From contig CALGPO010000068.1 of assembly GCA_937960465.1 (NCBI GenBank), positions 1 through 37,592 on the forward strand: DNA of 37,592 nucleotides. Reading direction: 5' to 3'. Below are positions 3,814 through 37,592 of this stretch, in pieces. Made by a program: the position numbers and the translations under genes. This DNA comes from an uncultured bacterium (lineage in GTDB: Bacteria; Nitrospirota; Thermodesulfovibrionia; Thermodesulfovibrionales; Dissulfurispiraceae). Position 1 is the first letter of the stretch; each line of letters begins with the position of its first letter. The notes beneath the pieces were generated by a model, which worked only from the letters and a program-made list of their open reading frames with translations, had not been told where the DNA came from and ran no database searches.

Positions 3814-5166
3814 TTATCCTCTCAGCTTTTTATTAATATTCTCTATAGTTTTATTCAGGTTTTCATCCCTACTGCGTCTGTCCTCTATCTGCTTGCATGC
3901 ATAGATCACAGTTGCGTGGTCTTTTCCGCCAAAGCACCTGCCGATTTCACTTAAGGATAGCTGCGTATGCTGCTTTGCAATATACATTGCTATCTGTCGT
4001 GCATTTGCTACTTCCTTCGTACGTTTTTTTGTTCTTAGCTCCTGTGCCTTCATCCCGAAATATTCACTGACTACCTTTTGTATGGTCTCTACGGTTATGG
4101 GTTTGTTGTCTTCGGATATCAGGTCTTTCAGCACATTCTTTGCCATATTTATGTCTATTGGCATACCTGTGAGTGACGCATAGGCGCCTAACTTTATAAG
4201 GCATCCCTCCAGTTCTCTTATGTTGGACTTTATCTTAGTGGCTATGAAATATGCTACTTCGTCGTTTATTGAGAGTTTCTCTGCATCCGCCTTTTTATAT
4301 ATAATTGCAACCTTTGTCTCGACCTCCGGAGGTTGTATGTCCGCAATAAGCCCCATACTAAATCTCGACCTTAGCCTGTCCGTAATATCCGCAATTTCCA
4401 TTGGCGACCTGTCGCTGGAGACTACTATCTGCCTCTGCTTTTCATAAAGTGAATTGAATGTGTGAAAGAACTCCTCTTGTGTTGTAGTCTTACCCGCAAT
4501 AAACTGGACATCATCAAGCAGCAATACATCAACATTTCTATATTTTTCTTTTAGTTCAGCCATTTTTTCATGTCTTAAGGAGGATACAACCTCATTAGTA
4601 AATTGTTCTGCAGGGACATAACAGACTATCATTCCAGGATTCCTATCTACTATTGCATTTCCAATAGCATTTATTAGATGTGTCTTACCAAGACCAACAC
4701 CTCCATATATAAACAATGGATTGTAGGCATAGCCTGGGTTTTCTCCAACCCTTACGGCAGCAGCATGGGCAAACTGGTTTGAAGGGCCCACAACAAAGGT
4801 ATCAAAGGTATATCTCGGATTTAAATAAATGCCCCTGCTTGCCAGTTTATTCCTTCTGTTTTCAAGCCTCGACTCTATCCTTCTCAGGGCGGCATCCTCT
4901 TTTTCTGCAGTCTTGTATTTTACGGTCAGGGGATATCCAAGTATGCTTTCCACTGCGTCTGCAATAATTGTAGGATAATTGTCTTCTATCCAGTCTCTGA
5001 AAAACCTATTCGGAATCTCAACTGCTATAGTTTTGTCTTTCAGTTGAAGGAGTTTTATTGGCTTGAACCAGAGGTCAAAGGTACTGTTTCCAACCTTTTC
5101 AGCAATCTTAGAGAGGCTTTTATCCCATATTTTTTCTATGTTTTCTATGTTGGTAACTGCTGACAT
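3814..5166 (-). CDS. dnaA: Chromosomal replication initiator DnaA
   Basis: AAA+ initiator that binds DnaA boxes and melts oriC. It has 450 residues with the standard four domains: an N-terminal helicase-loading domain (IWDKSLSKIAEKVG...FDLWFKPI), a short linker, the AAA+ core with Walker A GGVGLGKTH and Walker B LLLDDVQF, and the C-terminal DNA-binding domain with GGKDHATVIYAC. The ATG at 5166 follows an AGAGGAT-type ribosome site. Its upstream region carries a MITE copy 44 bp from the start codon, and beyond that the AT-rich oriC candidate. Confidence 0.98.
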   Translation of the reverse strand: MSAVTNIENIEKIWDKSLSKIAEKVGNSTFDLWFKPIKLLQLKDKTIAVEIPNRFFRDWIEDNYPTIIADAVESILGYPLTVKYKTAEKEDAALRRIESRLENRRNKLASRGIYLNPRYTFDTFVVGPSNQFAHAAAVRVGENPGYAYNPLFIYGGVGLGKTHLINAIGNAIVDRNPGMIVCYVPAEQFTNEVVSSLRHEKMAELKEKYRNVDVLLLDDVQFIAGKTTTQEEFFHTFNSLYEKQRQIVVSSDRSPMEIADITDRLRSRFSMGLIADIQPPEVETKVAIIYKKADAEKLSINDEVAYFIATKIKSNIRELEGCLIKLGAYASLTGMPIDINMAKNVLKDLISEDNKPITVETIQKVVSEYFGMKAQELRTKKRTKEVANARQIAMYIAKQHTQLSLSEIGRCFGGKDHATVIYACKQIEDRRSRDENLNKTIENINKKLRG

Positions 5167-5210
5167 CCCCTATCCTCTTCTAAAAAAAGCAAAATGTCCA
5201 TTATTTATTA

Positions 5211-5292
5211 CCTAAATTGAGCGATTCTATATTCAGACCTGTCTGCGTGCAACGCACAGGTAGGCCTGCCTTACAAAATCGCTCAACTTAGA
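5211..5292. mobile_element. MITE-like element, copy 1, with 5-bp target duplication
   Basis: An 82-bp element beginning CCTAAATTGAGCGATT and ending AATCGCTCAACTTAGA, imperfect terminal inverted repeats of each other. It is flanked on both sides by TATTA (5206-5210 and 5293-5297), a 5-bp target duplication. The interior has a GC-rich hairpin built on TGCGT/ACGCA. A near-identical 82-bp copy is at 25568-25649, and the same left end begins the IS at 37213. No coding capacity. It lies between dnaA and the oriC candidate. On the minus strand, toward dnaA, a promoter-like TTGCAC-N17-TAGAAT is present (5252-5247 and 5229-5224). Confidence 0.85.
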
Positions 5293-5554
5293 TATTAACA
5301 TGTTATTAACATTTGTTAATAACTTTATCTGCTTTTACCTGCTCATTATAGCCTATATGTTAAAACAAGGGCAATAATATGTTAGTTAATAAGAACCGAA
5401 AATCTTTTCAACACCAAATGCAATTTCATTTAAAAACAATACCGATTTCTTACATCTATAACTTATTGATAAATAAATATTTATATAGGTTATTAACAAA
5501 TAAACAGTGCCTACTACAATTACTATTTATTATTTAAATAAAAGAATAGTAGTA
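5293..5554. other. Putative chromosomal origin (oriC), AT-rich, with DnaA-box-like repeats
   Basis: A gene-free, strongly AT-rich stretch between dnaA and prfB. It has three copies of the 9-mer TTATTAACA: plus strand at 5303-5311 and 5490-5498, minus strand at 5314-5322. The first and third form an inverted pair 2 bp apart. A near match lies at 5292-5300, and TTATTGATA is at 5463-5471. These differ from the E. coli box TTATCCACA at two positions. An AT inverted repeat (arms 5521-5527 and 5545-5551) may be an unwinding region or part of the prfB 3' end. The origin role is inferred from position beside dnaA, composition and repeats. Confidence 0.65.
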
Positions 5555-6668
5555 TTACTTCTTAGTATTTGTTAAGATTTTTAAATATCCCTTGATAAAG
5601 ATATCAATATCTCCATCAAGAACTGCATCCACATTTCCGACCTCTATATTAGTCCTGTGGTCTTTAACAAGCCTGTAAGGCTGAAGCACATAAGACCTTA
5701 TCTGATTTCCCCATGATATTTCCTTTTTATCGCCTACTATACCCTCAAGTTTCTGTTCCCTCTCCTTGAGAGACATATCATAGAGCCTCGATTTTAATAT
5801 CTTTATTGCAACTTCCCTGTTTCTGTGCTGTGATCTCTCACTCTGGCAAGAAACTATTATTCCTGTAGGAATATGGGTAATCCTTACAGCAGATGAAACC
5901 TTGTTCACGTGCTGTCCACCTGCACCTGAGGCCCTGAATGTATCTATTTTCAGATCCTCATCCCTTATCTCTATCTTAATATCATCCTCTATTTCAGGAT
6001 ACACAAGCACGGCAGAAAAAGATGTATGCCTTCTCTTATTTGCATCAAAGGGCGATATTCTTACGAGTCTGTGTATACCGGCTTCTGCCTTCAGATAGCC
6101 ATAGGCATAAGGTCCTTCAACCGTAAAGGTCGCTCCCTTTATTCCAGCCTCATCCCCTATTTGTAAATCAACTATTTCTGTCCTGTAACCATGCGTCTCA
6201 GCCCATCGCAGGTACATCCTCATCAGCATCTGCGCCCAATCCTGGCTCTCTGTACCTCCTGCACCTGGATGGATTGTCACTATTGCACTATTTTTATCAA
6301 CATCTCCTGAAAGGAGGAGTTTTGATTCTATGTCCTCTAAATTTTTTCTGAGCTCATCAGCCTCTCTTTTAATATCCTCGAAGAATATCTCCCCCTCATC
6401 CTCGCTCAGGATTGCAAGAGAGTCCTCAAGGTAAAGGATCTTGTTTATTGCATTTTCTACAGGCCATATGGTCTCTTCGATATTGGTCTTTGCCTTCTGT
6501 AGACCCCTCAGTTTTTCTGGAGAAGACCATACGTCTTCAGATGAGAGTTCCTTCTCTATATTAGACAGTTCAGTCTTAAGTCTGTCGACATCAAAGATAA
6601 CCTCTTAAAGAGGCTGCCTTCTCTTTTAATTCAGAAATATAATCTTTAAGCTCGTTCTGTAACAACAT
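5555..6668 (-). CDS. prfB: Peptide chain release factor 2, with programmed +1 frameshift
   Basis: RF2 releases peptides at UGA and UAA. The gene is in two frames: 25 codons from ATG 6668 (MLLQNELKDYISELK...LRGYL) end at an in-frame TGA (6593-6591). Shifting +1 at CTT-TGA continues as DVDRLKTELSN through to the stop at 5555, giving about 370 residues, the normal RF2 length. AGAGG (6605-6601) lies just upstream of the slip site, as in the E. coli autoregulatory frameshift. The C-terminal part shows the SPF stop-recognition tripeptide and the catalytic GGQ in GAGGQHVNKVSSAVR. The start has GGAGG 7 nt upstream. It lies 25 bp after lnt on the same strand. Confidence 0.95.
6591..6605 (-). promoter_or_regulatory. 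prfB +1 recoding site (internal Shine-Dalgarno plus CTTTGA)
   Basis: The minus strand reads AGAGG-TTAT-CTT-TGA. The ribosome slips from CTT onto TTT when RF2 is scarce and UGA is decoded slowly. This is a known autoregulatory circuit, seen here from both the frame break and the motif. Confidence 0.92.
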
Positions 6669-10846: not shown

Positions 10847-10867
10847 TAATTGCAGGGGTTTTTGAAC

Positions 10868-11064
10868 CATGTCATGGTTCGACAAGCTCACCATGACAAG
10901 TAGACTGTCACCCTGAGCTTGTCGAAGGGTGACACACACAACAAGCTCACCATGACATGGTTCGACAGGCTCACCATGACATGGTTCGACAGGCTCACCA
11001 TGACATGGTTCGACAGGCTCACCATGACATGTAGACTGTCACCCTGAGCTTGTCGAAGGGTGAC
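10868..11064. repeat. Tandem 24-bp repeat array flanked by a 33-bp direct repeat
   Basis: Three identical 24-bp units (10951-10974, 10975-10998, 10999-11022) contain GGTTCGACAGGCTCAC; a partial unit follows at 11023 and a diverged unit lies at 10868-10891. A 33-bp sequence is repeated at 10901-10933 and 11032-11064. Each copy ends in a palindromic GTCACCC...GGGTGAC hairpin carrying GAGCTTGTCGAA. There are no unique spacers, so this is not a CRISPR. It fills the gap between convergent pyrG and parB. Confidence 0.85.
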
Positions 11065-25534: not shown

Positions 25535-25567
25535 TAACAATTTCCTTTCTCAGTCAAAAAATTAAAA

Positions 25568-25649
25568 CCTAAATTGAGCGATTCTATATTCAGGCCTGTC
25601 TGCGTGCAACGCACAGGCAGGCCTGCCTTACAAAATCGCTCAACTTAGA
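25568..25649. mobile_element. MITE-like element, copy 2, with 5-bp target duplication
   Basis: Also 82 bp and the same as copy 1 at 5211-5292 except for a few substitutions (for example CAGGCC for CAGACC, and CAGGCAGG for CAGGTAGG). It is flanked by TAAAA on both sides (25563-25567 and 25650-25654), different from copy 1, so it is an independent insertion. It lies just upstream of the transketolase N-terminal half, in the same orientation relative to its neighbour gene as copy 1 is to dnaA. The promoter-like TTGCAC-N17-TAGAAT facing the gene is kept (25609-25604 and 25586-25581). Confidence 0.87.
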
Positions 25650-25736
25650 TAAAATATTATATATCATATGGATAAAAAATTGTAATGATGAAATCGCTAA
25701 GGAGACCAGATAGGTATAGACATGCGGATTATGGTT

Positions 25737-37007: not shown

Positions 37008-37079
37008 ATGCTTGCTAAGCGGATAATACCGTGTCTTGATGTAAAGGATGGAAGGGTTGTAAAGGGTGTCTCCTTATAA
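37008..37079 (+). pseudogene. hisF: hisF, 5' fragment only
   Basis: Imidazole glycerol phosphate synthase cyclase subunit, cut after about 21 codons. MLAKRIIPCLDVKDGRVVKG is the invariant HisF N terminus, with the catalytic Asp in CLDVKDG. The frame then enters a REP-type hairpin sequence and stops at TAA 37077-37079. The full protein is about 250 residues. A ribosome site GGGAG lies in the end of the methyltransferase gene. The rest of hisF could lie beyond the window, past the inserted elements. Confidence 0.88.
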
Positions 37080-37110
37080 ATTTTATTAGGGACACATCCC
37101 ATATTTTTGA
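37066..37110. repeat. REP-like hairpin at the hisF break
   Basis: AGGGACACATCCCATATTTT at 37088-37107 matches the sequence after gyrB (199-220, opposite strand). GTGTC at 37066-37070 with the nearby CCT can also pair with AGGGACAC, giving a longer imperfect hairpin upstream of the transposase start. Confidence 0.6.
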
Positions 37111-37141
37111 CATTAAAATAGCTGTTCTGTAAAATTACTAC

Positions 37142-37222
37142 ATGCCAAGAATAGCAAGAGCGGTTGCGGTAGGATTCCCTCATCATATAATCCAAAGAGG
37201 GAATAATAAAGACCTAAATTGA
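37142..37222 (+). pseudogene. REP-associated tyrosine transposase (TnpA_REP), 5' fragment
   Basis: MPRIARAVAVGFPHHIIQRG is the characteristic N terminus of the Y1/IS200-like REP-associated transposases. The frame runs into the end of the IS at 37213 and stops at TGA 37220. Full-length proteins are about 200-330 residues, so only the first tenth or so remains here. The hairpin just upstream fits the element's own REP. Confidence 0.85.
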
Positions 37223-37592
37223 GCGATTCTTTTTTGCAAAACAGTTTTGTCACCCGAAATCTTTAAATCTTATCATTTTGAAATAGATAGAACCTCTAAG
37301 AGCAAAGATTTCACGACAGTGCAACTATATTTTTGCACTCATTATTGAAAACTCTCTCATAAAACACTGCTTTAAGGTGAAAATTACAGAATTCAGACGC
37401 ACCTATCCTCTCTTGTGTTCTTTAATTTCTCTGCTGTCAAACAATTATTGGTATCGGATTCTGACACCTTTTCCATAAATCATTAAATCGCAATGTATCC
37501 ATAACTGTCTGTGTGATTTTCAGGATTATTTCTCCACCTGTCTTTACAATCTTTGCTGCAAAGTCTAATGCCTTCCGCCTGACTGTCGTCGC
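37213..37592. mobile_element. IS1380-like insertion sequence, one end (runs off the window)
   Basis: Starts with CCTAAATTGAGCGATTCT, the same terminal repeat as the two MITE copies. It interrupts the TnpA_REP fragment; the 5 bp before it are AAAGA, the expected target duplication. Between the end and the transposase stop are about 220 bp of non-coding sequence. CCT ends and 5-bp or similar duplications are consistent with the IS1380 family, but the family call is tentative. Confidence 0.75.
37437..37592 (-). CDS. IS transposase, C-terminal end (partial)
   Basis: Minus-strand frame open from the right edge to TGA 37439-37437, 51 residues in view. It contains TVRRKALDFAAKIVKTGGEI and then DTLRFNDLWKRCQNPIPIIV. 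The basic, helical tail is like that of IS1380/IS4-type DDE transposases, where a segment of this sort follows the last catalytic Glu. The catalytic part lies outside the window. Confidence 0.65.
   Translation of the reverse strand, partial: ATTVRRKALDFAAKIVKTGGEIILKITQTVMDTLRFNDLWKRCQNPIPIIV

Follow-up and report, generated by a model that had tools for sequence, protein, structure and literature searches.

The window, by which we mean the whole 37,592-nucleotide stretch of DNA analysed here, carries dnaA on its reverse strand (3814-5166; TIGR00362, 564 bits) and, 43 bp upstream of the dnaA ATG at 5166, an 84-bp repeat that occupies positions 5210-5293 (copy 1). A second copy of 84 bp lies at 25567-25650, about 31 bp upstream of the transketolase ATG (at about 25535). 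Both copies are assigned to the reverse strand, which is the strand that carries a promoter-like motif and that, for copy 1, would be transcribed as the dnaA leader. The initial annotation had placed the two copies 44 and 33 bp upstream of the genes and had set the limits of copy 1 at 5206-5297; there is indeed an element at these close upstream positions, but the distances and exact limits are those given here. Upstream of copy 1 follow a cluster of DnaA-box-like sites, the native dnaA promoter (5345-5374, reverse strand) and a putative origin unwinding module (5490-5535, forward strand). Note that prfB (release factor 2), at 5555-6640, has a programmed-frameshift layout in which a short first frame ends ...SLRGYL-TGA and is followed by the main frame (GGTTATCTTTGA).

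Insertion of a MITE in two leaders

Copy 1 runs ACCTAAATTGAGCGATTC...AATCGCTCAACTTAGAT and is bounded by terminal inverted repeats, the left one (ACCTAAATTGAGCGATT; 5210-5226, forward strand) being matched by the right one (ATCTAAGTTGAGCGATT; 5277-5293, reverse strand) at 15 of 17 positions. The two copies are identical at 82 of 84 positions. When compared to a consensus of 48 copies of 84 bp, which have a mean identity of 96.3% to it, copy 2 is equal to the consensus and copy 1 is off by two bases. All copy counts refer to the host draft genome (1.92 Mb in 155 contigs), in which we found at least 40 near-full-length matches. Allowing up to two mismatches, a search for the left end of the element (TTGAGCGATTCTATATTCAG) gave 90 occurrences in this genome and none for its reversed control; likewise, the core of the terminal inverted repeat occurs 205 times versus 0 for the reversed control. 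Copies are typically 84-85 bp long, and longer relatives of 100-485 bp have other interiors. The repeat is thus shorter than 500 bp, too short for a transposase gene, and dispersed in multiple copies that are mostly intergenic (1 of 75 falls within an ORF of 100 aa or more).

Direct repeats of 3 bp flank both copies in the window. Copy 1 lies between ATT/AAT triplets at 5207-5209 (dnaA side) and 5294-5296 (origin side), and copy 2 between AAA/TTT triplets at 25564-25566 (transketolase side) and 25651-25653 (promoter side). As an empty-site reference we used G002, a sibling species of the same genus whose DnaA is 94% identical. At the dnaA leader the empty site in G002 (GTTAATAAATAATGG) reads AACGTGTTAATAAATAATGGACATTTT, and the window reads AACATGTTAAT-(84 bp)-AATAAATAATGGACATTTT; the difference between the two leaders is exactly the element plus AAT, which means that the insertion duplicated AAT. 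Similarly, the empty site of copy 2 reads ATATAATATTTTAATTTTTTGAC in G002 and ATATAATATTTT-(84 bp)-TTTAATTTTTTGAC in the window, with TTT duplicated. Exact 3-bp direct repeats flank 34 of 54 copies in the genome, as against a mean of 3.3 and a maximum of 10 when the pairing of flanks was shuffled (2000 trials). Moreover, in an enlarged set of 73 copies, 41 have a 3-bp target duplication and none has one of 5 bp. The triplet that is duplicated differs between copies and is most often AAT. The 3-bp duplications and the empty sites together establish that the element arrived by true transposition. The empty sites in this relative prove both insertions, and for copy 1 they supply the comparison with the origin of a relative lacking the element that the initial annotation had proposed; the identification of the repeat as a MITE present in two copies is upheld by the terminal inverted repeats, the target duplications and the empty sites. 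Copy 1 also lies, as had been claimed, between dnaA and the replication origin, if the origin is taken to be the putative module, and it does so at the edge of the DnaA-box-like cluster. (An origin of the element as a REP/RAYT palindrome is ruled out by the 3-bp target duplications and the terminal inverted repeats; in the copies that were read the repeat was not seen bounding Y1 transposase genes, and such genes exist in the genome.)

The full element, including its interior, was found in none of 150 relatives, and those relatives that gave matches share one end or an interior palindrome of approximately 30 bp. As far as the compared genomes show, the 84-bp form thus appears to be a recent expansion in the host species. 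An Rfam scan of the window returned a single tRNA and placed no known RNA family on the MITE. MITEs that have the same ACCTAAATTGAGCGATT ends, are 82-263 bp long and are unrelated in their interiors were seen across the order (loci L104-L133); some of these hold other palindromes inside, and one genome, G131, has dozens of such ends.

Native promoters, DnaA-box-like sites and a putative origin module

We compared the region upstream of dnaA in 30 genomes of the order (the window's genome and 29 relatives). The native dnaA promoter, TTGCCC-N18-TATAAT, matches the consensus at 10 of 12 positions and is intact, and in 30 of 30 genomes a TTG-type -35 element is found 17-18 bp ahead of a TATAAT upstream of dnaA. 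The promoter columns have a mean identity of 80% to the relatives, as compared to 46% for the preceding stretch and 32% for the leader past the insertion. Copy 1 starts 51 bp downstream of the native -10 element. The native transketolase promoter, TTACAA-N18-TATAAT (25656-25685, reverse strand), is also intact, with a -10 box (25661-25656) that is conserved in four of four relatives; copy 2 starts 5 bp downstream of this promoter, at approximately the expected transcription start. Because intact native promoters lie upstream of both copies, the element sits in the 5' leaders of the two genes and not in the place of a promoter. The conservation of the dnaA promoter suggests that it is most likely still the promoter that drives dnaA.

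The DnaA-box-like sequence TTATTAACA occurs three times in the 37.6 kb of the window, where 0.43 occurrences would be expected, and all three lie in the dnaA intergenic region; the earlier observation that such repeats adjoin the insertion is thus confirmed. (The classical sequence TTATCCACA is absent from the window.) Two of these putative sites, at 5303-5311 (forward strand) and 5314-5322 (reverse strand), face each other. A third promoter-proximal site (5292-5300, forward strand) reads TGTTAATAA in G002 and was altered by the insertion at one end base, so that TTATTAACA became ATATTAACA. In nearly all of the 30 genomes DnaA-box-like sites are present downstream of the conserved dnaA promoter. 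We infer that the listed sites bind DnaA, and autoregulation by DnaA may be slightly affected by the alteration of the third site.

The putative origin unwinding module consists of a DnaA box (TTATTAACA), AATAAACAG, the spacer TGCC and the DnaA-trio-like sequence TACTACAATTACTAT..., and was left untouched by copy 1, which is some 200 bp away. The block at 5486-5560 that includes it has a mean identity of 64% across the 29 relatives. We compared the order of these parts with that of the basal unwinding system (BUS) (PMC8287927). As in the BUS, a DnaA box, a short spacer and DnaA-trio-like repeats are found in the same order near dnaA and are conserved; the MITE is no part of the module. From the 30-genome set, three features of the dnaA region can be read off for a little-studied lineage: its promoter, its DnaA boxes and its putative unwinding module.

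The leader of dnaA seems to accommodate insertions. The distance from the -10 element to the matched dnaA start is 67-196 bp in the relatives, and the 184 bp of the window fall within this range. The leader of G005 (C33:14083-14147) contains a palindromic repeat that occurs at 8 further places in the G005 genome, and that of G041 (C4:16165-16239) contains a different palindromic repeat with 16 further long matches, so that the same leader holds unrelated repeats in three genera, namely those of the window, G005 and G041. This variable spacing and these dispersed repeats contradict the supposition that the region is usually kept free of insertions. The recurrence of leader repeats fits a site that is tolerant, for which no function of the repeats would be required; the insertion at dnaA shows that mobile elements can settle between a DnaA-box cluster and dnaA provided that they miss the native promoter and the origin module. 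We entertained the idea that, in this order, unrelated palindromes land time and again in the leader, between the promoter-proximal DnaA boxes and the start codon, and have been co-opted there as leader hairpins which, together with the altered third box in the window, retune dnaA autoregulation, an idea that we consider decidedly improbable. (A description of a MITE upstream of dnaA was not found in the papers that were searched.)

Consequences of the insertion for dnaA expression

The motif TTGCAC-N17-TAGAAT faces dnaA in copy 1 (5224-5252, reverse strand) and transketolase in copy 2, just as the initial annotation had stated. Its agreement with the sigma-70 consensus extends to 8 of 12 positions, to which the -35 element contributes 3 of 6 and the -10 element (TAGAAT) 5 of 6. 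A promoter scanner reported the native dnaA promoter and did not report this motif, which fell below its threshold. The motif occurs in the window against a chance expectation of 0.01, but it does so only as part of the repeat; it is exact in 42 of the 48 copies of 84 bp, and since nearly every copy has it, finding it at two genes is not very informative by itself. We also asked on which side of 75 oriented copies genes lie, genes being long ORFs called without a gene finder. Gene starts within 300 bp were found 40 times on the side that the motif faces and 29 times on the other, a difference that is not significant (p=0.23). Where the neighbouring genes are in tandem, the motif was co-directional in 23 cases and opposite in 12 (p=0.09), which leans towards a promoter-facing orientation without reaching significance. 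(A bias of 18:7 in tandem contexts, p=0.04, came from a smaller sample and was dropped in favour of the 23:12 obtained with 75 copies.)

When folded by itself, the element forms one hairpin of -43.7 kcal/mol (copy 1) or -49.8 kcal/mol (copy 2). The whole dnaA leader has a folding z-score of -8.2, and the hairpin is isolated within it. Between the RBS and the start codon, the mean unpaired probability is 0.245 when the element is present and 0.252 when it is left out, and as these values are nearly equal, translation initiation should be little affected. These predictions suggest that the leader hairpin is probably self-contained and of little consequence.

How, then, is the element at dnaA best explained? 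We think it highly probable that a non-autonomous MITE entered the 5' leader of dnaA where this borders on the DnaA-box-like cluster, duplicating AAT, that the native TTGCCC-N18-TATAAT upstream of it stays in use and most likely keeps driving dnaA, and that the element would be transcribed as a self-contained leader hairpin of approximately 84 nt that is near-neutral in effect, with predicted RBS accessibility unchanged; the probable mobiliser would be a transposase of the IS1380 family acting on this same terminal repeat. The insertion looks like a recent and largely ordinary one, and not like an event by which replication control was taken over. Such a takeover, in which the element's own promoter would have replaced the native control of dnaA (and of transketolase), is what the initial annotation had suggested. 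In its favour, the distance of the motif from the two genes that it faces would suit a promoter, and other MITEs, the Correia elements, do carry real promoters (PMC10969869). Takeover of dnaA control by the transposon is nevertheless not supported and strikes us as very improbable: both native promoters are intact upstream of the insertions, that of dnaA in a form found throughout the 30 genomes, and the motif is weak in its -35 element, sub-threshold, common to nearly all copies and not significantly biased towards gene starts. If instead the element merely added a second, weak promoter beside the native one, dnaA expression would be modestly raised. The near-consensus -10 element, the ideal spacing of 17 and the small surplus of gene starts on the motif side, which is not significant, would agree with this, yet the -35 element is just as poor here and the one orientation bias that had appeared significant shrank with the larger sample, so that we deem an added promoter unlikely.

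The hairpin itself might have been retained by selection as a regulator, for example as an RNase III site that sets the stability of dnaA mRNA, in combination with a DnaA autoregulation weakened through the altered third box. Its great stability would suit such a role, as would the unrelated palindromic repeats in the same leader of two other genera, and there is a precedent in the Correia element at mtrCDE, which is cut by RNase III (PMC10969869); by analogy, cutting of the dnaA leader hairpin by RNase III is possible. Copies of the MITE adjoin many different genes, however, the accessibility of the RBS is predicted to be unchanged, a tolerant leader equally predicts recurrent insertion, and among the genomes compared (150 relatives) the 84-bp form is confined to one species, and we therefore regard retention by selection as unlikely. 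Finally, a draft genome of 155 contigs and a high-copy repeat might raise the suspicion that the repeat was misjoined between dnaA and the origin by the assembly, an error that the initial annotation had named as a way in which its reading could fail. The perfect 3-bp duplication and the matching empty site speak against such an artefact, and so do the ends of two pairs of contigs, C68/C6 and C3/C53, which overlap by exactly 141 bases in each pair: these overlaps suggest an assembly word of 141, which exceeds the length of the element, so that single copies would be placed unambiguously. We consider an artefact extremely improbable.

The element can be set beside two known kinds of repeat. Like ERIC of enterobacteria, which is about 127 bp long, it is a non-autonomous intergenic palindrome whose transcript would fold into a stable hairpin; it differs from ERIC in sequence and size. 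An effect of ERIC on mRNA has been described at 3' ends (PMC10969869). With the Correia elements of Neisseria it shares a short length, high copy number, intergenic location, the capacity to form a hairpin and a sigma-70-like motif, and one Correia element likewise sits in a transcribed leader, immediately past the native promoter of mtrCDE (PMC10969869). Unlike the Correia elements, the MITE studied here duplicates 3 bp of varied sequence and has a weak motif that is a putative promoter.

The candidate mobilising transposase and the right end of the window

The last stretch of the window (37212-37592, forward strand) is the left end of an insertion sequence of the IS1380 family, which has the same 18-bp terminus as the MITE and is truncated where the contig stops. 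The remainder, including an IS1380-family transposase (NF033539, 207.5 bits against a cut-off of 180; PF13701), is on contig C6, which overlaps the right end of the window by 141 bp. The terminal inverted repeat adjoins five of the five IS1380 genes that were found, four of them besides that of the window's genome and from among the 150 relatives, with ends of the form ACCYAARTTGARCGRTT; the genes in these four relatives are partial, and no IS target duplication is measurable from them. A scan of viral contigs yielded no autonomous partner with both ends. (The stretch at 37202-37235 had been considered as a third copy of the MITE and was rejected, as it is the end of the IS1380-family IS, with the same terminal repeat.)

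Target duplications of IS1380 elements are usually 4-5 bp long, whereas the MITE, which has no transposase, duplicates 3 bp; its link to this family is therefore a link of termini. The target duplication of IS1247 is 5 bp (PMC3281130). A possible 5-bp duplication, TAAAG, is seen between C68 and C6, for an IS copy that is broken at the contig end; the right flank of this C68 plus C6 copy is not the continuation of the intact Y1-transposase gene, which is in C137 and continues differently. Judging from the shared terminus, we consider mobilisation of the MITE by an IS1380-family transposase to be rather likely.

The right end of the window (37008-37211) shows nested insertions: hisF breaks off after 23 codons, where part of a transposase gene of the Y1 kind (IS200-like, RAYT-type) interrupts it, and this fragment is itself cut by the IS1380-family element. 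The start of the Y1_Tnp (PF01797) gene occurs in four partial or longer copies in the genome (including L049, at 1-333 of contig C137, L048 and L050), three of which share the upstream sequence TTATTAGGGACACATCCCATATTTCTTGACA. Directly upstream of the broken hisF lies a gene for an adenine-specific DNA methyltransferase (MethyltransfD12, PF02086; 35904-37004), in a stretch from about 32 to 37 kb that is AT-rich (33-37% GC). Elsewhere in the window, at 10858-11064, intergenic tandem repeats of 24 bp around ACATGGTTCGACAGGCTCACCATG are flanked by CACCCTGAGCTTGTCGAAGGGTGAC palindromes and represent another type of dispersed repeat.
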